Of a stretch of 49,142 bases of DNA, positions 5,481 through 49,110 are shown piece after piece. Position numbers and translations under genes: made by a program. Each line of letters opens with the position of its first letter. Within the stretch, counting starts at the first letter, position 1. Under the pieces are notes generated by a model. It saw only the letters and a list, made by a program, of their open reading frames with translations. It was not told the origin of the DNA and did not search any database. The stretch spans positions 1-49,142 of the forward strand of contig JAGAYH010000052.1 of the NCBI GenBank assembly GCA_017940565.1, given 5' to 3'. This DNA is from Bacteroidaceae bacterium (GTDB lineage Bacteria; Bacteroidota; Bacteroidia; Bacteroidales; Bacteroidaceae).

Positions 5481-5625
5481 CCAAAAAAATTTGACAAACG
5501 GCCGACAGACGTCCCACATCGGCGTTCACAAGTGGGACTTCGTCGCGCAGAAACGGCGTTTCAAAATTCCGAAGCGCCGCTTCTGTTTGGCCGCATCTGA
5601 GACCCGATGAAAATCAGCGGATTAG
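5481..5625 (+). repeat. Dispersed intergenic repeat, copy 1
   Basis: About 145 bp matching the reverse complement of 21104-21250, with an identical 42-nt core (5519-5560 versus 21171-21212). Inside it palindromic 13-mers are centred at 5535, 5556 and 5577, exactly 21 nt apart (CAAGTGGGACTTC, GAAACGGCGTTTC, GAAGCGCCGCTTC). Confidence 0.85.
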
Positions 5626-10148: not shown

Positions 10149-11249
10149 ATGAACGAAATTCTGCATTTAATCAATCAGATGTCGCCCTACCTGCTCCTCG
10201 GTTTCTTGCTGGCCGGCATCATGCACGCCTTTATTCCCAAGCGCTATTTTACCCGCTACTTGTCGAAACCCGACTTGCGCTCGGTTGTCAATGCCGCCCT
10301 GCTGGGCATACCTCTGCCGTTGTGTTCATGCGGCGTGCTGCCCACGGCCATGTCGCTGCGTAAGGAGGGAGCATCAAAGGGAGCAGCCACGTCATTCCTA
10401 ATAGCCACACCGCAGACGGGAGTGGACTCCATCATTGCCACATTCTCGCTGATGGGACTGCCCTTCGCCGTCATCCGACCTATCGTGGCTCTCGTCACAG
10501 CCCTGTTCGGCGGGACACTGGTCAATGTAATTGACAAAGAGAAACCGGAAAAGGCCGAAGAAGCCGAACACTGCTGCTGTCACCACGAGGAAGAGGAAGC
10601 CGGGTACTGCTGCTGTCACCACGAGGAAGAGGAAGCCGGGCACTGCTGCTGCCACCACGAAGCCGATGCTAAGCAAACGACGTTTTTGGGAAAATGCCTG
10701 GTGGCTTTGCGCTACGCTTTTGTTGACATGATAGCCGACATTGGCAAATGGCTGGTGCTGGGTCTCGTCATTGCCGCACTCATCACCGTACTGGTGCCCG
10801 ACACGTTTTTTGCCGTCTTTGCAGACAACACATGGCTATCCATCCTGCTCGTTCTGGCCATCAGTATTCCCATGTATATCTGCGCCACAGGTTCCATACC
10901 CATTGCCGTAGCTCTCATGCTCAAGGGGCTGACACCGGGGGCTGCCCTCGTGTTGCTCATGGCCGGACCGGCTGCCAACTTTGCCAGCATATTGGTCATC
11001 CGCAAACAGATGGGTCTGCGCACCCTCATGGCTTACCTTGCAGCCATCGTGGGCGGAGCCATCGGCGGCGCTCTGGTCATAGACTACCTGTTGCCGCGCG
11101 CCTGGTTTACCGACCATCTGGTCCAGATGTCGGCCCACTGCGTGGAAGGGGCATCGTGGTTCCAGTGGACATGCACCGCAGTGCTGCTTCTGCTCTTGGG
11201 CTATGCTTTCTATAAAAACAGAAAAAAGAAATCATGCACTTGCCATTGA
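10149..11249 (+). CDS. SO_0444/ArsP-like heavy-metal efflux permease (DUF318)
   Basis: 366-residue inner-membrane permease with two blocks of hydrophobic helices (about 10-130 and 185-355). The first block has the family motif PLCSCGVLP (57-65) and the second a similar PMYICATGSIP stretch, as in Cu/Zn efflux transporters called SO_0444 family and in ArsP. The loop at 141-170 holds three CCCHH clusters separated by EEEEAG, encoded by a 36-bp tandem repeat, and the protein ends in SCTCH; both look like metal-binding sites. The ATG at 10149 fits the promoter; an upstream start at 10056 would lie before the promoter. The last 16 nt overlap a Fur-family gene, so metal control of metal export is likely. 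The exact metal is not shown. Confidence 0.87.
   Translation: MNEILHLINQMSPYLLLGFLLAGIMHAFIPKRYFTRYLSKPDLRSVVNAALLGIPLPLCSCGVLPTAMSLRKEGASKGAATSFLIATPQTGVDSIIATFSLMGLPFAVIRPIVALVTALFGGTLVNVIDKEKPEKAEEAEHCCCHHEEEEAGYCCCHHEEEEAGHCCCHHEADAKQTTFLGKCLVALRYAFVDMIADIGKWLVLGLVIAALITVLVPDTFFAVFADNTWLSILLVLAISIPMYICATGSIPIAVALMLKGLTPGAALVLLMAGPAANFASILVIRKQMGLRTLMAYLAAIVGGAIGGALVIDYLLPRAWFTDHLVQMSAHCVEGASWFQWTCTAVLLLLLGYAFYKNRKKKSCTCH
10572..10663 (+). repeat. 36-bp in-gene tandem repeat coding for CCCHH clusters
   Basis: About two and a half copies of a 36-bp unit inside the permease gene, each coding for a CCCHH cluster and the acidic linker EEEEAG. The copies are almost identical at DNA level, so the number could change by slippage or recombination. 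Confidence 0.85.
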
Positions 11250-12266: not shown

Positions 12267-12337
12267 GGTACCTTGACCGAGTGGCTAGGTAGCGGTCTGC
12301 AAAACCGCGTACAGCAGTTCGAATCTGCTAGGTACCT
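12267..12337 (+). tRNA. tRNA-Cys (GCA)
   Basis: 71-nt cloverleaf. The acceptor stem GGTACCT (12267-12273) pairs with AGGTACC (12330-12336). The anticodon is GCA at 12299-12301 in loop CTGCAAA. The T-arm contains GTTCGAATC. The discriminator at 12337 is T (U73), the identity base of tRNA-Cys. No CCA is encoded, so the 3' end must be added by the CCA enzyme, whose gene is the convergent neighbour. Confidence 0.96.
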
Positions 12338-21103: not shown

Positions 21104-21250
21104 CTGCAATCCGCTGTTTTTCATCGGGTCTCGAATATAGTCAAACAGAAGCGGCGCCTCAAAATTCCGGAACGCCGTTTCTGCGCGACGAAGTCCCACT
21201 TGTGAACGCCGAAACGGGACCACTTTCGAGGATTTGTCAAGATTTTTTGG
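21104..21250 (-). repeat. Dispersed intergenic repeat, copy 2 (inverted)
   Basis: Inverted relative of 5481-5625, sharing a 42-nt identical core at 21171-21212. Palindromic 13-mers are centred at 21154, 21175 and 21196, exactly 21 nt apart. Confidence 0.85.
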
Positions 21251-37259: not shown

Positions 37260-37507
37260 AATTCACATCGGGAGAAGAAAAATCCATGCGATTAACATTT
37301 CTTATATCTTTTAACAGTCCGACGGGGGCATTTTTTGTGAGTTTGTCATTAAACCCCGTGCCAAATGCGGGTCATTTTTTATAAAAATCGCACTAAAGCG
37401 CACGAATCGCTGTGTGGCGAGCCCGGTTTTGACCAAAAGCCCCTCCTTTGGGGCAGAGCGGCCCACTCCACCCCACAGCTTCACCTCACACACGGCCTTG
37501 TTTCGCA

Positions 37508-37583
37508 AAGGTCGGACCTCGTCACGACGAAACGCCGTTTCAGTTTTACGAGGCGCCGTTTCGTAAATTTGAAACGGCGCCTC
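37508..37583 (+). repeat. 21-nt-period palindromic array (dispersed repeat, diverged copy 3)
   Basis: Four 13-mers centred at 37514, 37535, 37556 and 37577, each exactly 21 nt apart: AAGGTCGGACCTC, GAAACGCCGTTTC, GAGGCGCCGTTTC, GAAACGGCGCCTC. It aligns loosely with copies 1 and 2. Confidence 0.8.
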
Positions 37584-37590
37584 GTTTTTT
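37550..37590 (+). terminator. Orphan plus-strand terminator-like hairpin
   Basis: Perfect 13-bp stem (37550-37562 with 37571-37583), 8-nt loop, then GTTTTTT. No plus-strand gene ends here, so it may close an unannotated RNA. Confidence 0.6.
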
Positions 37591-37734
37591 CCTACGGACG
37601 ACAGAAGCGCGTCCCAACAAAAGCAAGAAATACAAGTCTTGGCATTTTTGTTTTTTTATACTATCAGACCATGAAATTATGCATTTTTATATTACACGGC
37701 CAGATAATCAAAGAATTTTAACTGAACACCTCAA

Positions 37735-37804: not shown

Positions 37805-40912
<3,108 letters not shown>

Positions 40913-40933
40913 TTATATAAGGTATAAATGTTT

Positions 40934-42019
40934 TTACTTTTTATCCGTCGCCGGCACTGACGCCATCGTCTCAACTTCTATCAGCCACTGCGGGCGGCAC
41001 ACGGGGGCCAGCACCACGATGCGGGGCACGTTCGGGAAACGCCCGTTCAGATATTCATTGACCACGCCACAGTCCGACAGGTCGCGCAGATATACCGTCA
41101 TCCACACCAGGTCGTCCAGCGTGGCCCCGCCGTCGGCCAACAGGTGGCTGATGTTTTCAAACAGGCGGTCGGCCTGGCGCGGCACATCGTTCTGATGGAT
41201 ACAACGGCCATGGCGGTCAATGCTCGCCGTACCGGAAATATAAAGAGAGGCACCGCCGTCACCGGTCGATACCCGCACCCCGCGCTCAAAGGCCACGCCG
41301 TACTCGTGTGTGGGGTTCAGCCATTCCAAAGCCTGCAGATAGTGCTGGCTCAGGGCTGGGGCATCCACGCTCCAGAAGTCCACGGCCACGGCTGCACCGG
41401 CCACATCGGTCTGTCCGCCGATGCCGGTCGAAGCGATAAAATGCGTATCCTTCGTCAGTCCCTCGCGGGCAAACACCGCATTGCGGCCTTCCACCACACC
41501 ATGATAGTTGTGGTCAATGTCGCGCACGTAAAGCCATGTGCGCACGCAGTTGTCCGCCAGCGACAACCCTTCCGCTTTCAGCCAGTCGATGTGGCGGCCG
41601 AAGGCTTCCTCCGTCTGTTCCTTCGACGAGAGGCCGGCCACCTCGTCGGCCGTGAAGCGCACACTGTGATACAGGCGTTTCACGCCTCCGCAGGCCACAA
41701 CACAGCGGTCGGGGGTGCCGCTTACCGTCACGCTGTCGGTTGTCACCGTCAGAATCAGCGTGATTTTACTGCCGTCCAGCGGCGGTTGCTCCACCCACGA
41801 GAAAGCTCCGCGCGAGAGCACGTCGGCATAGAGCACGCTCGCCCTAAGCAGCGGCAACTGGTTGGCCGCATCGCTCAAGAAAGCCCGGCACCACACCAGT
41901 GTCACCCTTTCTTCGTCCCTGCCGGAAAGCACGTGGCGCACTTCGCGCTCCAACGCCGACAGGCGCGAAACGAAATCACCCGTCACGGGAGCCGGCAATA
42001 CGAATGTTCTTTCTTTCAT
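40934..42019 (-). CDS. RidA/YjgF-related protein, chorismatase-like
   Basis: 361 residues from the ATG at 42019, placed just after a strong promoter; the longer frame begins upstream of that promoter. Three parts look YjgF-like: an N-terminal piece (VTLVWCRAFLSDAANQ, WVEQPPLDGSKI), a middle piece (TWLYVRDIDHNYHGVVEGRN, then THFIASTGIGG) and a complete C-terminal RidA domain (GTASIDRHGRCIHQ, LDDLVWMTVYLRD, PNVPRIVVLAPVCRPQWLIEVE). The C-terminal Arg and Glu fit a RidA pocket. The whole resembles chorismate-cleaving FkbO/XanB2-type enzymes, which have this fold at this length, but I cannot confirm the activity. It is cotranscribed with beta-galactosidase, an odd pairing. Confidence 0.78.
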   Translation of the reverse strand: MKERTFVLPAPVTGDFVSRLSALEREVRHVLSGRDEERVTLVWCRAFLSDAANQLPLLRASVLYADVLSRGAFSWVEQPPLDGSKITLILTVTTDSVTVSGTPDRCVVACGGVKRLYHSVRFTADEVAGLSSKEQTEEAFGRHIDWLKAEGLSLADNCVRTWLYVRDIDHNYHGVVEGRNAVFAREGLTKDTHFIASTGIGGQTDVAGAAVAVDFWSVDAPALSQHYLQALEWLNPTHEYGVAFERGVRVSTGDGGASLYISGTASIDRHGRCIHQNDVPRQADRLFENISHLLADGGATLDDLVWMTVYLRDLSDCGVVNEYLNGRFPNVPRIVVLAPVCRPQWLIEVETMASVPATDKK

Positions 42020-42038
42020 TCTTTTTACTATTTGCTGA

Positions 42039-42070
42039 CAAAGATACGAATAAATGAGGGCAAAGTCAAA
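42039..42070 (-). promoter_or_regulatory. Promoter of the ridA-like/beta-galactosidase operon
   Basis: Minus-strand TTTG (42067-42070), 20 nt, TATCTTTG (42039-42046), an excellent match. The leader is about 13 nt. Confidence 0.8.
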
Positions 42071-42130
42071 GAGAAAACCGATTTTCTTTTGGCATGGCCC
42101 CATGAAAGCCTTCCACGCCAAGAGACCGTC

Positions 42131-42152
42131 TTCCGCCAATTCCGTGGCGGAA
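42131..42152. promoter_or_regulatory. Palindromic operator candidate
   Basis: TTCCGCCA, 6 nt, TGGCGGAA: perfect 8-bp arms over 22 bp, a size and symmetry typical of MarR-family operators, between the two divergent promoters. Confidence 0.5.
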
Positions 42153-42189
42153 TTACCAGTCGAATCGGAAATTTCTCACCGGACAATTT

Positions 42190-42238
42190 GTTTCAAAATT
42201 GTTTCAATAATGTTTCAAAATTGTTTCAGCAATGTTTC
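42190..42238 (+). repeat. Five GTTTC repeats in exact 11-bp phase
   Basis: GTTTC begins at 42190, 42201, 42212, 42223 and 42234, each followed by mostly A/T, and an inverted GAAAC follows at 42242. The array ends about 49 bp before the marR -7 box. Confidence 0.85.
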
Positions 42239-42286
42239 TTGCGAAACTTTTTGCCTGTAACCGCTTTCTGTTCCGTCACTTTTCAT

Positions 42287-42294
42287 TAACTTTG
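42287..42294 (+). promoter_or_regulatory. -7 box of the marR gene
   Basis: TAACTTTG, 28 nt before the ATG at 42323; the TTTG box upstream is poor, which fits a promoter needing an activator. Confidence 0.6.
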
Positions 42295-42322
42295 CGGCCA
42301 GAAACCAAGAAAAAAGCCCGAC

Positions 42323-42844
42323 ATGGATACCAGTATAGACTACCGTCTTGTCTTTGCGTTGATGAACGGCAAAGTGGCCGATGCCTTCAACCGCAAGCTC
42401 AGTGAATACTTTGCCAAAGCGCAAGTGCCCCTCACGGCCGAACAGTGGAACGTGCTCCTCACCCTGAGCATGCGCGAAGTGGCCACCCAACAGCAGATCT
42501 GCGACGACACTTCGTTCAGCAAAGCCACCATGACCCGCCTCGTCGACCAACTTGAAACCGAAGGCATTCTCGAACGTTTCAAAGCCCGCGTCGATTGGCG
42601 TTCCAATTATCTGCGCATGACACGCAAGGGGCTCGTCATCCGCGACAAGGGCCTCTACATCGCCTCGCGCACCCTGCGCGCCGCTCTTAAAGGGCTCACC
42701 AACGAGCAGGTCAGCACCACGCAGAACAGTCTCAACACCGTGCTCGAAAACCTCAAGCAGCACGACCACGTGACACCGCCCGAGGAAATAGCCGAGCTCA
42801 TGAAATTCTACAACCTGCGGAAGAACAAAGGCCTGCGCCGATAA
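42323..42844 (+). CDS. MarR-family transcription regulator
   Basis: 173 residues, slightly longer than the usual 140-150. The winged helix is clear: LTAEQWNVLLTLSM, then QQQICDDTSFSKATMTRLVD (recognition helix about 62-78) and the wing LERFKARVDWRSNYLRMTRKG. Flanking helices at both ends should form the dimer. MarR proteins typically repress divergent or own genes and respond to small phenolic ligands. It is divergent from the RidA/chorismatase-like gene, whose possible product type (aromatic acid) would suit a MarR ligand; that link is inference. A palindrome and phased repeats lie in the shared control region. Confidence 0.9.
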   Translation: MDTSIDYRLVFALMNGKVADAFNRKLSEYFAKAQVPLTAEQWNVLLTLSMREVATQQQICDDTSFSKATMTRLVDQLETEGILERFKARVDWRSNYLRMTRKGLVIRDKGLYIASRTLRAALKGLTNEQVSTTQNSLNTVLENLKQHDHVTPPEEIAELMKFYNLRKNKGLRR

Positions 42845-42897
42845 GCACAAACGTCCGGCAACCAGCCCGCAATCATCCGGCCACCACCCTGTTTTTA

Positions 42898-42960
42898 CGC
42901 ACGGGTGGCATGACTTTTCGCACAGGTGGCATGACTTTTCGCACGGACGGCAGGCAAAAT
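42898..42960 (+). repeat. 21-bp direct repeats
   Basis: Three units begin CGCAC at 42898, 42919 and 42940. The first two are identical over 20 of 21 bases (CGCAC, G/A, GGTGGCATGACTTTT); the third is diverged. Confidence 0.85.
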
Positions 42961-43005
42961 CTCCCGCACGCCGCCTGAAATTACAAAAACGACGGATAAA
43001 ATGAA

Positions 43006-43089
43006 AATAAAGGCTTTATTTGTACAAATAAAGCCTTTATTTATACAAATATAAGTTTTATTTCTCCGAATAAAAGCTTTATTCGCATT
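43006..43089. repeat. Four exact 21-nt palindromic units
   Basis: Units start at 43006, 43027, 43048 and 43069. Each is a 15-nt core followed by 6 nt: AATAAA-GGC-TTTATT, AATAAA-GCC-TTTATT, AATATA-AGT-TTTATT, AATAAA-AGC-TTTATT. The first two together form a perfect 38-bp palindrome (43005-43042). Confidence 0.92.
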
Positions 43090-43353
43090 TTAAGCAGCAG
43101 CACGGCGGTTTCGGGCAGCGCGCGGAAAATTTTAGGCGGGGCTTCGGAAGTATTCGGCGGCGCGCGGAAGGTTTTTGGTATCATGCAGAACGTTTTAACC
43201 GGGGCCGGAATCAATAAAAATTGAAATTTTGCCGTCGCGGAGGGAAAAAGGGGCGATTTTCATGTTACAAAACGGCAAGGGCGCCGTTTTACATTTAGAA
43301 TGCAATTCTATTTCTGACGCCAATTATCCGTTTTGACTCGTAAATTATCCGAC

Positions 43354-46290
43354 ATGAAACAGAGAAAACGACATTACTTAAATATGGCCACGCTGGTGCT
43401 GGCCTTCCTCATGGGTATGCCAACAACGACGAAGGCGCAGGACGGCAAATACATTGCCTACGGCATCGTCGTGGACCACGTGACGCGCAAGCCCGTCAGT
43501 GAGGTGCGCGTCTATCGCTGCACAACGGACAGCACGGTGGTAGATTCGTCCATGACCGACCCCGACTTAAATGTCGGGCAGCTCCACAACATTTATGTTT
43601 TCTATCCCCAAAAGTCGGGCGGGCTGGGCCTGCTGCGCGCAGAGAAAGAGGGTTACGAGACGGTGTGGGTGCCGCTGACGATACCGGCCTACAAAGGGCG
43701 TAAGTTCATGCACCGCCTGCCTGACATCGTGATGAAGCGCCGGCCCAAGGAGGTACATTTGGGCGGGGCCGTGGTGAAAGCCACGAGAATAAAATTCTTC
43801 AACCGCGGCGATACCTTAGTATATAATGCCGACGCCTTCAACCTGGCCGAGGGCTCCATGCTCGACGCCCTCATCCGCCAGTTGCCCGGCGCGGAACTGA
43901 ACGCCAACGGCGAAATCAAGGTAAACGGCGAGAAGGTGGAGAGCCTGATGCTCAACGGCGAAGACTTCTTCAAGGGGAACAACCAGCTGATGCTCGACAA
44001 CCTGCCATCGTACACGGTGAAAGACCTGCAGATCTATCGCAAGCGCGACAAAATGTCGGAGTTTGCAGGGCGCGACCTGGGAGAAAAGGAACTGGTGATG
44101 AACGTGAGGCTGAAGAAGGAGTACAACACCGGTTGGCTGGCCAACATCGAGGCCGGCAGCGGCACGGAAGCGCGCTACCTGGGCCGCCTGTTTGCCATGC
44201 GCTTCACGGACCACAGCACACTGAGCCTCTTTGCCAACCTGAACAACCTGAACGACCGCCGCCGCCCGGGCGAAAACGGCGGGTGGACACCGGAGCAGAT
44301 GCCCGAAGGCCGCCTGGCCACGAAGATGGCGGGAGCGAACTACCTCATCAAGGACCGCATGCACCGCTTTAAGCTCAACGGCAATGCCGTGGCGAAGCAC
44401 AGCGGGGGCGACAACCGCAACTCGACCAGCGGCGAGAACTTCCTCAAACAGGGCAATACCTTCCGGCGCGGCGAGGACCTCGGCCGCACCCGGCAGACGA
44501 CGTTCAGCACCTACCACGGATGGGAATGGGGCGCGGACGCCATCGTGAAGCAGATGTTCGACCTGGATTTCTGGATAACCCGCTGGCGCAACGGCAACGA
44601 CATCGTCGCGGCCACTTTCGCCGACAATCCTTTCAGCTACGGTACCGCCCTGCTCGACTCCATGCGCCAGGTGAACGCCGGCGCCCTGCTGCGACGCTCG
44701 GCCCTCAACCGCACGCTGAGCCAAACGTTGAACAAAGGCGATGAATACAGTTTCAGCGCTCAGCCGCAAGTGGGACTGAAAGCAACGGGCTCCGACTTTC
44801 TGTTCCTCACCGGCGAAGTGAAACTCACGGGATGGACGGAACAGCAGTTTGCCTCCCACCTGTACGACTACCCGAAGAGTCCGGGCACGGCCGCTGACTA
44901 CCGCCGCAACTACATTGACAACAGCCGGCACCGGCAGGAATACAGCGCGGGCGGCGCGTACTTCTTCGTGTTCCCCGGCAATCTGATCATAAGACCACAA
45001 TACACACTGACCCATACGCGCTGGCATGACAAGAACCCCCTCCACCGGCTTGACCGACTGGAGGGCTGGAGTGCCGACGACGAGCACGACGTGGACGAGT
45101 TACCCTCCACAACCGACTGGCGCATGCAGACGCTTGACCAGACCAACAGCGACTGGCGGCACTCTACAATGACAACACACGAGTTCAGCCTGCAAGAGCA
45201 GTGGAACACCTATAAGAATACCAAAAATCACTGGACACAAATCAGAGCGCAGCTCACCATCAGGCTCGTCAACGAGCAGATGGACTACCGGCGCGACACC
45301 TACAACGGCCGCACAAAACGGAACTTCACGGAAGTGCAGCCCAACGTCCTCGTGACACACAACTGGGACCATTACCAGCACGGCATGGTCTTCCGCTACT
45401 TCACCAATATCTACCAGCCTGACATGGTCAACCTGCTGTCGCTGACTAACACCGCCGACCCCCTCAACATCTACCTCGGCAACCCGCAACAGCAGACAGC
45501 CACGAAACACACCTTGACCTACCGCCTCTGGAACAATATCAAGAAGACGCAGCACCAGTGGAGCCTGAACGCCACCTACGCTATTCGGCACAACGCCCAC
45601 GCCATGGCCTACAGCTACAACCGCCAGACGGGCGTGCGCACCTGGCGGCCCGACAACGTGAACGGCAACTGGACGGCCGAACTGTCGTTCCGCTATTCCC
45701 TGCCACTGGACAAGGCCAAACGACTGACACTCTCAACGAATACGGAGGGCCTTTACAACCATGGTGTGGACCTGCTGGCCGACAGCGACGGCGACATTGA
45801 ACACCCCGCCCGCTCGTCAGTGAAGACAACGGGGCTGACCGAAAATCTGAAACTGGAATACAAATTTGGGAAATCCACTGTCGGGCTGCGCGGCAATGCG
45901 GCTTGGAACGGCGCCCGTTCCCATCGCGAACAATTCACGACAGTGGATGTATGGGACTTCAACTACGGGATTACCGGCACCGTGGAACTGCCGCTCGGCC
46001 TGCAACTCTCCACCGACCTTACCATGTACTGCCGGCGCGGCTACGACCTGCCCTCGGCCGACACGAACGACCTGGTGTGGAACGCCCGACTCTCGAAACG
46101 GTTGCCGAAACAGCACCTGACGCTGATGATAGACGGCTTCGACATCTTGCATCAGCTGTCGAACATGACGCAGACACTCAACACGCAGGGACGCATTGAA
46201 ACCTACCGCAACAGCCTGCCCAGCTACGTACTGTTACACGCCATCTACCGTTTCCAGATGAAGCCTAAGCACGAGCGTAACCAACGGTAG
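43354..46290 (+). CDS. TonB-receptor-like outer-membrane beta-barrel protein
   Basis: 978 residues from the ATG at 43354; a TTG seven codons upstream is less likely. Signal peptide MKQRKRHYLNMATLVLAFLM with cleavage near TKAQ. The N-terminal part (about 28-130) is a carboxypeptidase-regulatory-like domain (AYGIVVDHVTRKPVSEVRVY). A plug-like domain follows, with DALIRQLPGAELNANGEIKV and GEKVESLMLNGEDFF, then a barrel with alternating aromatic strands. This layout fits the 'outer membrane beta-barrel' receptors (PF14905-like) of Bacteroidetes rather than SusC, and no SusD gene is nearby. The C-terminus ends basic (KPKHERNQR) rather than in the usual aromatic residue, which is unusual for a barrel. 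The ligand is unknown. Confidence 0.85.
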   Translation: MKQRKRHYLNMATLVLAFLMGMPTTTKAQDGKYIAYGIVVDHVTRKPVSEVRVYRCTTDSTVVDSSMTDPDLNVGQLHNIYVFYPQKSGGLGLLRAEKEGYETVWVPLTIPAYKGRKFMHRLPDIVMKRRPKEVHLGGAVVKATRIKFFNRGDTLVYNADAFNLAEGSMLDALIRQLPGAELNANGEIKVNGEKVESLMLNGEDFFKGNNQLMLDNLPSYTVKDLQIYRKRDKMSEFAGRDLGEKELVMNVRLKKEYNTGWLANIEAGSGTEARYLGRLFAMRFTDHSTLSLFANLNNLNDRRRPGENGGWTPEQMPEGRLATKMAGANYLIKDRMHRFKLNGNAVAKHSGGDNRNSTSGENFLKQGNTFRRGEDLGRTRQTTFSTYHGWEWGADAIVKQMFDLDFWITRWRNGNDIVAATFADNPFSYGTALLDSMRQVNAGALLRRSALNRTLSQTLNKGDEYSFSAQPQVGLKATGSDFLFLTGEVKLTGWTEQQFASHLYDYPKSPGTAADYRRNYIDNSRHRQEYSAGGAYFFVFPGNLIIRPQYTLTHTRWHDKNPLHRLDRLEGWSADDEHDVDELPSTTDWRMQTLDQTNSDWRHSTMTTHEFSLQEQWNTYKNTKNHWTQIRAQLTIRLVNEQMDYRRDTYNGRTKRNFTEVQPNVLVTHNWDHYQHGMVFRYFTNIYQPDMVNLLSLTNTADPLNIYLGNPQQQTATKHTLTYRLWNNIKKTQHQWSLNATYAIRHNAHAMAYSYNRQTGVRTWRPDNVNGNWTAELSFRYSLPLDKAKRLTLSTNTEGLYNHGVDLLADSDGDIEHPARSSVKTTGLTENLKLEYKFGKSTVGLRGNAAWNGARSHREQFTTVDVWDFNYGITGTVELPLGLQLSTDLTMYCRRGYDLPSADTNDLVWNARLSKRLPKQHLTLMIDGFDILHQLSNMTQTLNTQGRIETYRNSLPSYVLLHAIYRFQMKPKHERNQR

Positions 46291-46381
46291 GATATGTTTC
46301 CCAATTTTTTTTAATAATTTCACCGGCAAGAGTTGTCGGAACGCATTAACTATTTAACGTTGCAATTCCAAAAATTGACAC

Positions 46382-46443
46382 TTAAACGCCGTTTTCTATA
46401 TTTTAAGTTACGATTTTGATAAGTTAATCTCCCGTTTTCGTTA
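46382..46443 (+). repeat. 21-nt-period units before rprX
   Basis: TTAA starts at 46382, 46403 and 46424, exactly 21 nt apart, each followed by a CG-x-TTTT segment (ACGCCGTTTT, TTACGATTTT, CTCCCGTTTT). Confidence 0.75.
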
Positions 46444-46479
46444 AAGATTGGCCCAGACGCGCGAAAACGGGAAATTAAC
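46423..46479. promoter_or_regulatory. 18-bp inverted repeat abutting the rprX promoter
   Basis: Arms 46423-46440 and 46462-46479 are complementary except one base (GTTAAT-C/T-TCCCGTTTTCG), spaced 21 nt, ending 2 nt before the TTTG box. It may be an operator or the terminator hairpin of the upstream gene. Confidence 0.55.
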
Positions 46480-46481
46480 AT

Positions 46482-46512
46482 TTTGTGGCTAAAAAAGGTG
46501 TGGTTATCTTTG
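46482..46512 (+). promoter_or_regulatory. Promoter of rprX-rprY, leaderless
   Basis: TTTG (46482-46485), 19 nt, TATCTTTG (46505-46512). The ATG at 46520 lies 7 nt after the box, where transcription itself should begin, so the mRNA should be leaderless. Confidence 0.75.
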
Positions 46513-46519
46513 CAATGAG

Positions 46520-48043
46520 ATGAAAAAACGGACCATTTGGATTATAGCCATTGTGATGGGCGTCAGTTTCTGCGCCCTTCTGGTACTGCAACTGCGCTAC
46601 TTCGAGCAGATGATACGCCTGCACCGCGAGCAGTTCGACAGCAGTGTGAGCCGTAGCCTGACCCACGTGACGCGCCAGCTGGAGATGGACGAAACGATGA
46701 AAGCCCTTCGCGCCGACGTGGCCAGCAATCTGCCCGACACGGTGGTGCTGGCCTCCGACCCCGCCACACAGCTGGGGAGCATCGGTGTGCACCAGGACTT
46801 CCTCGCCACCCCCGGCGACACAGCCTCTTCGCGCGTGAGCACGGGGCAGAGCGGCCTGTTCCTGAAGGCGCCCAACTTGCGTTCAGTCTACAATGTGTCG
46901 CAGCAGATGCGCAACGAACTGCGCTCACGCTATCTCTACCAGCGCGTACTGCTCGACAAGGTCATCTACGACATCCTCTACACGCAGAGTGAGAAGCCTA
47001 TTGAGGAAACCATCAACTTCAAAGCGCTCGACCAGCGGCTGAAGGCCGAACTGAAGCGCAACGGAGTAAACCTGCCCTACCACTTCCGCGTCACCTCACG
47101 CTCCGGCACGGTGCTCTACACCTGTCCCGACTATTCCCCCCAAGGCGAAGACCAGGCCTACAAGCAGGTGCTCATGCCCAACAATCCCCCGCAGAACACC
47201 GGTATCCTGCTCATCCATTTCCCCGACATGCAGCGCTACATCTTCCGCAGTGTCAAACTGTTGTTGCCTGCCATCATTTTCACGCTCGGCCTGTTCATCA
47301 CCTTCCTCTTCACCATAGTCATCATATTCCGCCAAAAGCGCATCAGCGAAATTAAGAACGACTTCATCAACAACATGACCCACGAGCTGAAGACGCCCGT
47401 CTCCAGCATCTCGCTGGCCACACAGATGTTGCTCGACCCTGCCGTGCCCAAGACGGAAAAGATGACAGCCCACCTCAGCGGCATCATCAGCGACGAGACC
47501 AAGCGCCTGCGCATGCTCATTGAGAAGGTGCTGCAAACTTCCATGTTCGAAGGCCGCAAGGTGCAATACAAGAATAAGGAAATCGATGTCAACAAACTGG
47601 TGGCTGACGTGGCCGACACCTTCAGCATCAAGGTGAAGAAGCTCGGCGGCACGCTCGACACCGACATCCAGGCCGCCGACGCCATCGTCTTCGGCGACCA
47701 GATGCACATGACCAACGTGCTGTTCAATCTCATGGACAATGCCGTGAAATACCGCCGTGAAGACGTGGACTTCCATCTCAGCGTGGCCACCTCGAACGAG
47801 CACGACAAGCTCCACATCACCATCGCCGACAACGGCATAGGCATCAAAAAGGAAAACCTCAAAAAGGTGTTTGACAAATTCTACCGTGTACATACCGGCA
47901 ACCGCCACGACGTGAAAGGCTTCGGCCTCGGCCTGGCCTACGTCAAGGGCATCGTTACCGCCATGCACGGCACCATACACGCCGAAAGCGAACTGGGCAA
48001 AGGAACTAAATTCATTATTATATTACCCATCATTAAAGACTAG
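46520..48043 (+). CDS. rprX: RprX-type sensor histidine kinase
   Basis: 507 residues. Two membrane helices (about 6-24 and 250-273) bracket a periplasmic sensor domain of about 225 residues. The cytoplasmic part has the H box MTHELKTPVSS with His288 as phosphorylation site, the N box NLMDNAVKY, and G boxes DNGIGI and GFGLGLAY. Sequence and gene order match Bacteroides RprX/RprY, first linked to altered outer-membrane porin and tetracycline phenotypes. It should phosphorylate the response regulator encoded 6 nt downstream. The start is fixed by the promoter, which leaves no room for a leader. Confidence 0.93.
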   Translation: MKKRTIWIIAIVMGVSFCALLVLQLRYFEQMIRLHREQFDSSVSRSLTHVTRQLEMDETMKALRADVASNLPDTVVLASDPATQLGSIGVHQDFLATPGDTASSRVSTGQSGLFLKAPNLRSVYNVSQQMRNELRSRYLYQRVLLDKVIYDILYTQSEKPIEETINFKALDQRLKAELKRNGVNLPYHFRVTSRSGTVLYTCPDYSPQGEDQAYKQVLMPNNPPQNTGILLIHFPDMQRYIFRSVKLLLPAIIFTLGLFITFLFTIVIIFRQKRISEIKNDFINNMTHELKTPVSSISLATQMLLDPAVPKTEKMTAHLSGIISDETKRLRMLIEKVLQTSMFEGRKVQYKNKEIDVNKLVADVADTFSIKVKKLGGTLDTDIQAADAIVFGDQMHMTNVLFNLMDNAVKYRREDVDFHLSVATSNEHDKLHITIADNGIGIKKENLKKVFDKFYRVHTGNRHDVKGFGLGLAYVKGIVTAMHGTIHAESELGKGTKFIIILPIIKD

Positions 48044-48814: not shown

Positions 48815-48881
48815 CACCAAACCCGCACCACCGGCAACGGAAGACGAGGGAAACGGGAGAAGGCACGCGACCCCCGCAACA

Positions 48882-48965
48882 CCAACGCCGTTTTCGGCAC
48901 GCCTAAATCCGATTTAGACATTTCCAACGCCGTTTTCGTCTCGACCAACTGCGCTTTCGTCATCA
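48882..48965. repeat. 21-nt-period array after rprY
   Basis: CCAACGCCGTTTTCG at 48882 and again at 48924 (42 nt later), CCAACTGCGCTTTCG at 48945 (21 nt later), and the palindrome CTAAATC-C-GATTTAG at 48903-48917 in the slot between. Four units in one register. Confidence 0.8.
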
Positions 48966-49110
48966 AAGACACGCCTCGCCGACGCCGGAAGACCGTTCCT
49001 CTTCCGTCTGTCCCGCCCTGAAAGCAAAAAAGTTGTGGGAAAATCCCTGTCGTTCCGTTCAAAATGACTAACTTTATCCCACCAAAAAACTCAATAAAAC
49101 TTTTACTCCG

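Follow-up and report, generated by a model that had tools for sequence, protein, structure and literature searches.

Phased arrays of two-fold symmetric sites between the genes of a Bacteroidaceae bacterium: possible nucleation sites for a dimeric DNA-bending protein

Background

What might a short, exactly phased array of palindromic units be doing between two genes of a Bacteroidaceae bacterium? The question is raised by four units of 21 bp in the window, by which we mean the whole stretch of DNA analysed (49,142 nucleotides, contig JAGAYH010000052.1 of assembly GCA_017940565.1). An earlier note, made from this sequence alone, offered three readings of the array: sites lined up on one side of the DNA for a dimeric DNA-binding protein, a string of RNA mini-hairpins, or a minisatellite-like element.

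Porphyromonas gingivalis belongs to the same bacterial order as the source of the window. In the available portion of its description, the BrickBuilt element of this species is an intergenic MITE with a 23-nt tandem repeat, present in 19 copies in one genome, which has a leader and a tail, small inverted ends and a repeat number that expands and contracts between strains (PMC4596501). The REP and BIME sequences of enterobacteria, Stenotrophomonas and others are, in the excerpted account, dispersed and species-specific extragenic palindromes, found in many copies and in regular clusters, for which roles in chromosome organisation have been suggested and of which BIME-2 arrays reportedly bind gyrase (PMC2817692). 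The nucleoid-occlusion sites of Noc (NBS) and SlmA (SBS) are dispersed palindromes that, as the excerpted source has it, are under-represented near the terminus (PMC4726725). Within the literature searched, where subscription journals are thinly covered, we recognised no description of phased dyad arrays with a 21- or 22-bp pitch.

Results

The array in the window

The units start at 43006, 43027, 43048 and 43069 in the exact 21-nt register that the earlier note had claimed, and its perfect 38-bp palindrome of the first two units is likewise present, at 43005-43042. The motif AATAAA-NNN-TTTATT, which it had ascribed to every core, is found in three of the four, the third core being AATATA-AGT-TTTATT. 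Its extent of 43006..43089 holds for the core but is too narrow for the element, as the 21-bp register continues into the flanking rows and a lag-21 stretch spanning 42836-43219 surrounds the core. The features of the locus are as follows.

42323..42844, + strand: upstream neighbour, a MarR-family regulator gene with its 3' end toward the element
42894-42946: 21-bp tandem array, from the repeat listing
42922..43005, no strand: left arm, rows -4 to -1, GC-rich, 21-bp register
43005..43042, no strand: perfect 38-bp palindrome of units 0 and 1
43006..43020, + strand: core unit 0, AATAAA-GGC-TTTATT
43015..43032, no strand: linker-centred dyad TTTATT-TGTACA-AATAAA, half a pitch off the unit dyads
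43027..43041, + strand: core unit 1, AATAAA-GCC-TTTATT
43048..43062, + strand: core unit 2, the odd unit, AATATA-AGT-TTTATT
43069..43083, + strand: core unit 3, AATAAA-AGC-TTTATT
43090..43152, no strand: right arm (rows +4 to +6), sharing the register of the left arm
43354..46290, + strand: downstream neighbour, a long ORF without a Pfam match

The 38-bp palindrome is the longest in the window, the runner-up having 16 bp. Lag-21 identity over 43003-43089 is 0.71, a value reached by 0 of 5000 dinucleotide shuffles with all lags from 8 to 39 allowed, and the longest palindrome across 5000 such shuffles of this segment was 26 bp. A tandem repeat finder calls the core as a 3.8-copy array, and for the window copy the folding energy is -25.4 kcal/mol (z -5.15). 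The earlier note was right that this is not a CRISPR: the units are of 21 bp and the 6-bp linkers recur between copies, so that CRISPR-length repeats with unique spacers are lacking in the array. An Rfam search of the whole window gave a tRNA at 12267-12337 as its sole match at the gathering score, and no known structured RNA at the array.

The long downstream ORF begins 270 bp beyond unit 3 and, by impression, encodes an outer-membrane protein. Two further repeats were observed in the window: an 11/22-bp repeat of TTGTTTCAAAA at 42188-42238, between a divergent L-PSP-domain gene and the marR gene, a possible operator for the MarR protein, and a 36-bp tandem repeat of 2.8 copies with 92% matches at 10560-10660.

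Copies and anatomy of family A

The draft genome from which the window comes (G000, 1.79 Mb, 63% complete) has 24 occurrences of the pattern AATAAANNNTTTATT (control 0). All 24 occurrences sit in eight clusters with 21-bp steps, each completed by a fourth, odd unit, and these clusters are the eight copies of what we call family A, with four core dyads in 8/8 and a single AATATA unit in every copy. A model built from the eight copies recovers these copies in the same genome and, at E 1e-6, a partial variant of the array (L077), one unit of which has both dyad arms altered together, AACTAA-GGC-TTAGTT. Across the 19 genomes of the genus, G000 included, two further clear copies were found, in G018 only, and the exact two-unit pattern is present in 1 of 301 genomes of the family, namely G000.

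When the eight copies are aligned in 21-bp rows, GC-rich rows appear on both sides in the same register. At lags of 21, 42 and 63 the identity is.47,.41 and.37 in the left arm and.46,.42 and.42 in the right, against.27-.32 one base off. Identity between copies is.81-.88 in the core and decays outward row by row (.58/.54,.49/.58,.45/.39 and.36/.30 on the two sides, then background), with no sharp border despite the inversion of the arms: the reverse-complemented left arm matches the right arm at.395, the right arms match one another at.413 and the wrong-strand control gives.215.

Pyrimidine-purine steps recur at fixed places. In the first linker (43015..43032 in the window) they stand at three places in 8, 8 and 6 of the 8 copies; the first two linkers carry them at matching places in 6-8 of 8 copies, as do the best positions of the arms, and the third linker, which adjoins the odd unit, has an irregular pattern. 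From the core to the arms the transition fraction drops, with.65 in the core against.49 (right arm) and.36 (left arm); since the left-arm value is near that of unrelated sequence, the purine/pyrimidine signal is mainly a property of the core.

Other phased families in the same genome

At least two more motif families, B and C, occur in G000 at the 21-bp pitch. Family B is a 137-bp element with 13-bp dyads of the GAAAC-GGC-GTTTC type, of which the sampled part of the genome holds 22 near-full copies. Changes on both sides of a pair in these 22 copies number 11 cells in the unit-to-unit palindrome (19 pairs), as against 3 in the unit dyads (12 pairs). The window contains the following members of the two families.

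5490..5624, - strand: family B copy
21107..21243, + strand: family B copy
37496-37591: family B copy
48852..48994, no strand: family C stretch, CTAAATCCGATTTAG / CGTTTTCG, lag-21 identity 0.55

By eye, two of the family B copies in the window are bordered by short direct TGTCAAATTTTTT-like repeats. Stretches resembling family C also lie in L109, L114 and L122, and in L020 rows of the A, B and C types appear, again by eye, to succeed each other in one register. A sister contig, L016, has the same MarR gap, its MarR protein being 97% identical to that of the window in the best segment; there is no family A copy in that gap, and a family B copy occupies it at 1724-1860, where the window has family A. 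This is turnover of the element at a single site.

How common the periodicity is between genes

The gap sample of G000 comprised 95 gaps of at least 110 bp left after masking of long ORFs, 29.6 kb in all from about 390 kb, and a gap was scored as positive if it held an 84-bp stretch with a lag-21 identity of at least 0.5. Twenty-one of the 95 are positive, against a mean of 0.02 over 50 rounds of dinucleotide shuffling, and in the same gaps lags of 18, 19, 20, 22, 23 and 24 give 1, 0, 0, 0, 1 and 1. Perfect palindromes of at least 16 bp occur in 6 of the 95 (1.2 expected). The earlier note had made its reading depend upon an excess of 21-nt periodicity or dyad symmetry over shuffled sequence in other gaps of the genome, and both excesses are present.

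Over lags of 12-40 with long ORFs masked, the lag excess of G000 is 26 at lag 21, the next being 2. It is 27 at lag 21 and 10 at lag 22 (next 5) in 569 kb from 17 congeners, for which several stretches were chosen around weak model hits and are thus biased toward arrays, and 11 at lag 22 and 7 at lag 21 (next 3) in 443 kb from 28 genomes of other genera of the family, sampled blindly, 3 of the 28 yielding only N. Samples of 3-40 kb from 9 of the 17 congeners gave no lag-21 stretch, one of these samples being all N, and four 50-kb stretches of E. coli K-12 (29.9 kb unmasked) gave nothing at lag 21 or 22. A test of dyad symmetry against column permutation, with at most 5 of 100 taken as a pass, was passed by 22/31, 17/35 and 7/18 arrays. 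Two very long 21-bp arrays, unlike the short cores elsewhere, were also seen: one of about 28 rows at 18560-19150 of L165 (G015) and one of about 18 rows with a small pitch drift at 9648-10036 of L088 (G016).

The same pitch with other motifs

Two congeners, G001 (GGAAYRTAYRTTCC) and G014 (TGAACRTAYGTTCA), carry mutually similar motifs of the GAAYRTAYRTTC type at a 21-bp pitch, with 202 and 183 adjacent 21-bp pairs respectively and 0 each for the reversed-pattern control; no such pairs were found in the remaining 17 of the 19 genus genomes. Another genus supplies 17 arrays of CGACTTAAGTCG in G050 and 12 of CGACCTAGGTCG in G023, both at a 22-bp pitch, the two motifs being related to each other (CGACYTARGTCG type; reversed-pattern control 0) and present in 2 of the 28 genomes searched. 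The load runs from 8 arrays per genome to an estimated 40-100.

Comparing different loci rather than alleles of one locus, G050 has four core dyads in 15/17 arrays, G001 has 2-4 (three in 14/20), G014 has 3-6 (five in 10/18, end half-dyads counted) and G023 has two in six arrays and three in six, so that, with G000, two of the five genomes counted (G000 and G050) show a nearly constant core size. Exactly one dyad that is not TTAA-centred occurs in 16/17 arrays of G050 (L203-L217, L260 and L261), at a varying position, for which the chance probability is 1e-5 if odd dyads are independent. One odd dyad per array was considered as a general rule, given 8/8 copies in G000 and 16/17 arrays in G050, and was rejected on account of L099 and L101 of G001, which have two.

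In G050, G001 and G014 each flank of the arrays is similar to the reverse complement of the opposite one (.391,.354 and.352 vs.254,.260 and.246). Periodicity of the arms is clear in G000, less so in G050 (.38 at lag 22) and borderline in G023 (.34-.35 vs.30-.34 at adjacent lags); G001 and G014 show none.

Centres of the sites

The centre triplet of family A is R-N-Y in 43/43 units, the two G018 copies and one variant array included, with outer bases of G-C in 18, A-T in 10, A-C in 8 and G-T in 7. The six centre bases of G014 follow Y-R-Y-R-Y-R in 54/53/54/54/52/54 of 54 sites of a ranked sample whose search pattern favours this outcome, and within each class C and T, or A and G, are mixed freely. 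Because the pattern itself permits the Y-R class, the count was redone on stretches fetched before the pattern was made: the class is kept at 11/10/11/11/10/11 of 11 such sites in G014 and, more loosely, at 13/9/13/13/9/13 of 13 in G001.

Complementarity was measured at the two variable centre pairs against the column expectation. The ranked sites come from the 20 G001 and 18 G014 arrays at the top of a mismatch-ranked list, which biases their centre statistics toward the search pattern; they are complementary in 23/54 (31.1 expected) and 14/54 (25.6) in G014 and in 22/50 (24.3) and 11/50 (16.0) in G001. The unselected sites give 7/11 (6.6) and 1/11 (4.6) in G014 and 2/13 (6.5) and 4/13 (5.8) in G001. 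Complementarity in these two genomes is thus at, below or barely over expectation, and not clearly above it. In family A the centre triplets of units 0 and 1 are fully complementary in 4/8 copies (the window, C5, C21 and C52). The centres keep their purine/pyrimidine class rather than their bases.

The half-sites are mostly base-specific within a genome: AATAAA/TTTATT, GAA/TTC and CGAC/GTCG, some of these sites having been picked by pattern. Largely constant half-sites around a flexible centre coded by purine/pyrimidine class would be the expected footprint of dimeric DNA-bending proteins.

Gene context and chromosomal position

Five of the eight family A copies lie in tandem gaps, two in divergent gaps and one in a convergent gap; the seven sister-copy contexts were assigned with Pfam, and most neighbours of the eight copies were checked in this way. 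The five copies in tandem gaps, oriented by the odd unit, point with transcription. By ORF-based calls, in which strand errors are possible, the arrays of G000 number 6 per 15 convergent, 8 per 28 divergent and 12 per 43 tandem gaps of at least 150 bp, and those of the congeners, with the same proviso, 12 per 26, 8 per 37 and 12 per 58. Gaps of every gene orientation are occupied over all arrays (ORF-based).

The -7 box is a promoter element of the Bacteroidetes. Such boxes were sought by eye downstream of some copies, and a promoter role was dropped because copies also lie between convergent genes. In a pattern scan the window hairpin was found on the minus strand only, and terminator-like matches in 40000-46600 show no excess (9 vs 8.9 in shuffles).

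Conservation of array position between G023 and G050 is slight, the two having one two-gene neighbourhood in common (L181/L210), and one gene pair is common to L023 of G000 and L214 of G050. On the complete chromosome of G023 the 12 arrays leave 1.34 Mb array-free with the terminus inside. The nearest array is at least 0.49 Mb from the terminus (p 0.014) and the largest gap has p 0.038, both values being post hoc and coming from 12 arrays of one genome, with the terminus placed roughly from 20 skew samples.

Candidate binding proteins

The ORFs within 2.5 kb of the arrays, or within shorter flanks in G001 and G014, include no gene that recurs across all the genomes compared. HU-HIG genes adjoin one array of G000 and lie 52 bp from one array of G050 and 1514 bp from one of G023, a proximity that may be due to chance.

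The octamers of the Lrp/AsnC (feast/famine) family bind several dyads along one face of the helix, and the four dyads of the core, as a comparable arrangement, might suggest such a binder. Sixteen of the 19 genus genomes have a single Lrp gene, G011 has two, and none was found in G007 and G018. The recognition helix of Lrp, VSRAVVHQRV, is identical in the five genomes read (G002, G006, G011, G015 and G016) while the array motifs of G002 differ from those of G015 and G016; the helix does not follow the motif, and Lrp was rejected as the binder. A REP transposase was rejected as well: PF01797, the REP-transposase family, was found in 4 of the 19 genus genomes, and G000 (63% complete), G001, G014, G016 and G018 are not among them.

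Discussion

The dispersed copies, their register and symmetry, a core size near-fixed in two of five genomes, the conservation of purine/pyrimidine class and a pitch that recurs with changed motifs are what the interpretation has to account for. From these we infer a protein, its bending of DNA, its cooperativity and a chromosomal role: we give an even chance to the reading that the arrays serve as nucleation sites for a dimeric protein that binds cooperatively and bends DNA, is possibly nucleoid-associated and has a role that is chromosomal rather than gene-specific. The array in the window would form the core of one of the copies of a dispersed intergenic element, made of two-fold symmetric protein sites two helical turns apart and so presented on one face of the DNA, with weaker in-phase rows flanking the core, in G000, as inverted arms. 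A dimeric protein would read the mostly constant half-sites and bend the flexible pyrimidine-purine centres; it may nucleate on the core of about 3-4 dyads, after which binding would extend outward cooperatively and in register, or the protein would wrap the DNA. Such nucleation and extension would account for a phase that persists outward from the core even as conservation declines. As the elements are not tied to one promoter or terminator type of gap, a part in chromosome structure or domain marking, nucleoid-associated and by analogy BIME-like or Noc/SlmA-like, seems likelier than control of single genes. Of the three readings in the earlier note, the array for a dimeric protein, the binder being putative, is the best supported, by the exact phase and the two-fold symmetry of the units and of the whole element, together with a nearly constant core size in two genomes (G000 and G050) and the purine/pyrimidine-conserved centres.

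The main rival, a possibility that we consider real but doubtful, is a selfish REP- or MITE-like repeat, in which a transposase or recombinase reads the dyads and copies the element, any host function being incidental. Clade-specific motifs, array numbers from 8 up to an estimated 40-100 per genome and the small conservation of position all fit this, as do the 22 near-full copies of the 137-bp family B and its occupation of the L016 gap where the window has family A; BrickBuilt, a MITE with a 23-nt tandem repeat in the available part of its description, provides a precedent (PMC4596501). Family A, however, has no sharp ends, its identity decaying by row, and PF01797, confined to 4/19 genus genomes, was found neither in the own genome nor in G001, G014, G016 and G018. 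A passive repeat would also not be expected to show strict phase and purine/pyrimidine coding.

A second alternative, which we think improbable, is that the DNA is mechanically special, its phased pyrimidine-purine steps favouring wrapping of the gyrase or HU type without base-specific recognition. Pyrimidine-purine steps do stand at fixed positions in the core and, at the best positions of the arms, in 6-8 of 8 copies, the centres are conserved mainly by class, and the excerpted source reports gyrase binding for BIME-2 arrays (PMC2817692). Shape alone, though, does not need half-sites that are largely base-specific within a genome, and the left-arm transition fraction of 0.36 is about that of unrelated sequence.

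Very unlikely, in our estimation, is a function in RNA, whereby the palindromes would be transcribed as the hairpins of terminators, attenuators or mRNA ends. The fold of the window copy (-25.4 kcal/mol, z -5.15), the relative frequency of arrays in convergent gaps (ORF-based calls) and the 11 both-side changes in the unit-to-unit palindrome of family B, against 3 for its unit dyads, are in keeping with it. Hairpins would nevertheless require complementarity, and the centres of G014 and G001, at or below expectation, show none in excess; in family A no more than 4/8 copies have full complementarity between the centres of units 0 and 1, and 2/8 copies lie between divergent genes, the hairpin of the window was found on the minus strand only and terminator-like matches are as frequent as in shuffles (9 vs 8.9). 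The mini-hairpins of the earlier note are accordingly disfavoured. A plain, functionless minisatellite arising from slippage is scarcely credible, for although the 3.8-copy call, the more variable unit number of G001, G014 and G023 and the very long arrays of G015 and G016 have that character, the unit number is nearly constant in G000 (4 in 8/8) and G050 (4 in 15/17), the arms of G000 show no phase drift, the flanks are inverted and the copies are dispersed.

The nucleation arrays proposed here may be compared with the known systems as far as the excerpted accounts describe these. They resemble REP/BIME as dispersed extragenic palindromes in regular clusters, but differ in that PF01797 was not found in the own genome and in a 21-22 bp pitch that recurs while the clade sequences change (PMC2817692). 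BrickBuilt is likewise an intergenic tandem repeat of similar unit length, the likeness being one of description, and by its description it is set apart from family A, in which the ends are not sharp and each copy has four units (PMC4596501). The under-representation of NBS and SBS near the terminus has a parallel in the 12 arrays of G023, which avoid the skew-estimated terminus region (one genome, post hoc), but these sites are not described, in the portion available, as phased arrays (PMC4726725). A fixed two-turn pitch with turnover of sequence is absent from the accessible descriptions of all three, and phased dyad arrays are possibly a new class.

Conclusions

A wider proposal, to which we give rather less credence than to the nucleation arrays themselves and which we put forward tentatively, is of a family-wide class of elements defined by geometry and read by a predicted, fast-evolving nucleoid protein, which would nucleate, spread and mark regions of the chromosome, motif and protein co-evolving into clade-specific versions; by analogy with nucleoid-occlusion sites, the class possibly keeps clear of the terminus. 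Elements whose spacing is conserved while their sequence is turned over escape ordinary homology searches, so that similar ones may be missed elsewhere. The arrays are phased and easily predicted and would therefore serve as direct bait for the protein, giving a route to the question of how these chromosomes are organised or protected. If the interpretation is correct, a sizeable share of the intergenic DNA here would consist of docking arrays for an undescribed chromosome protein.
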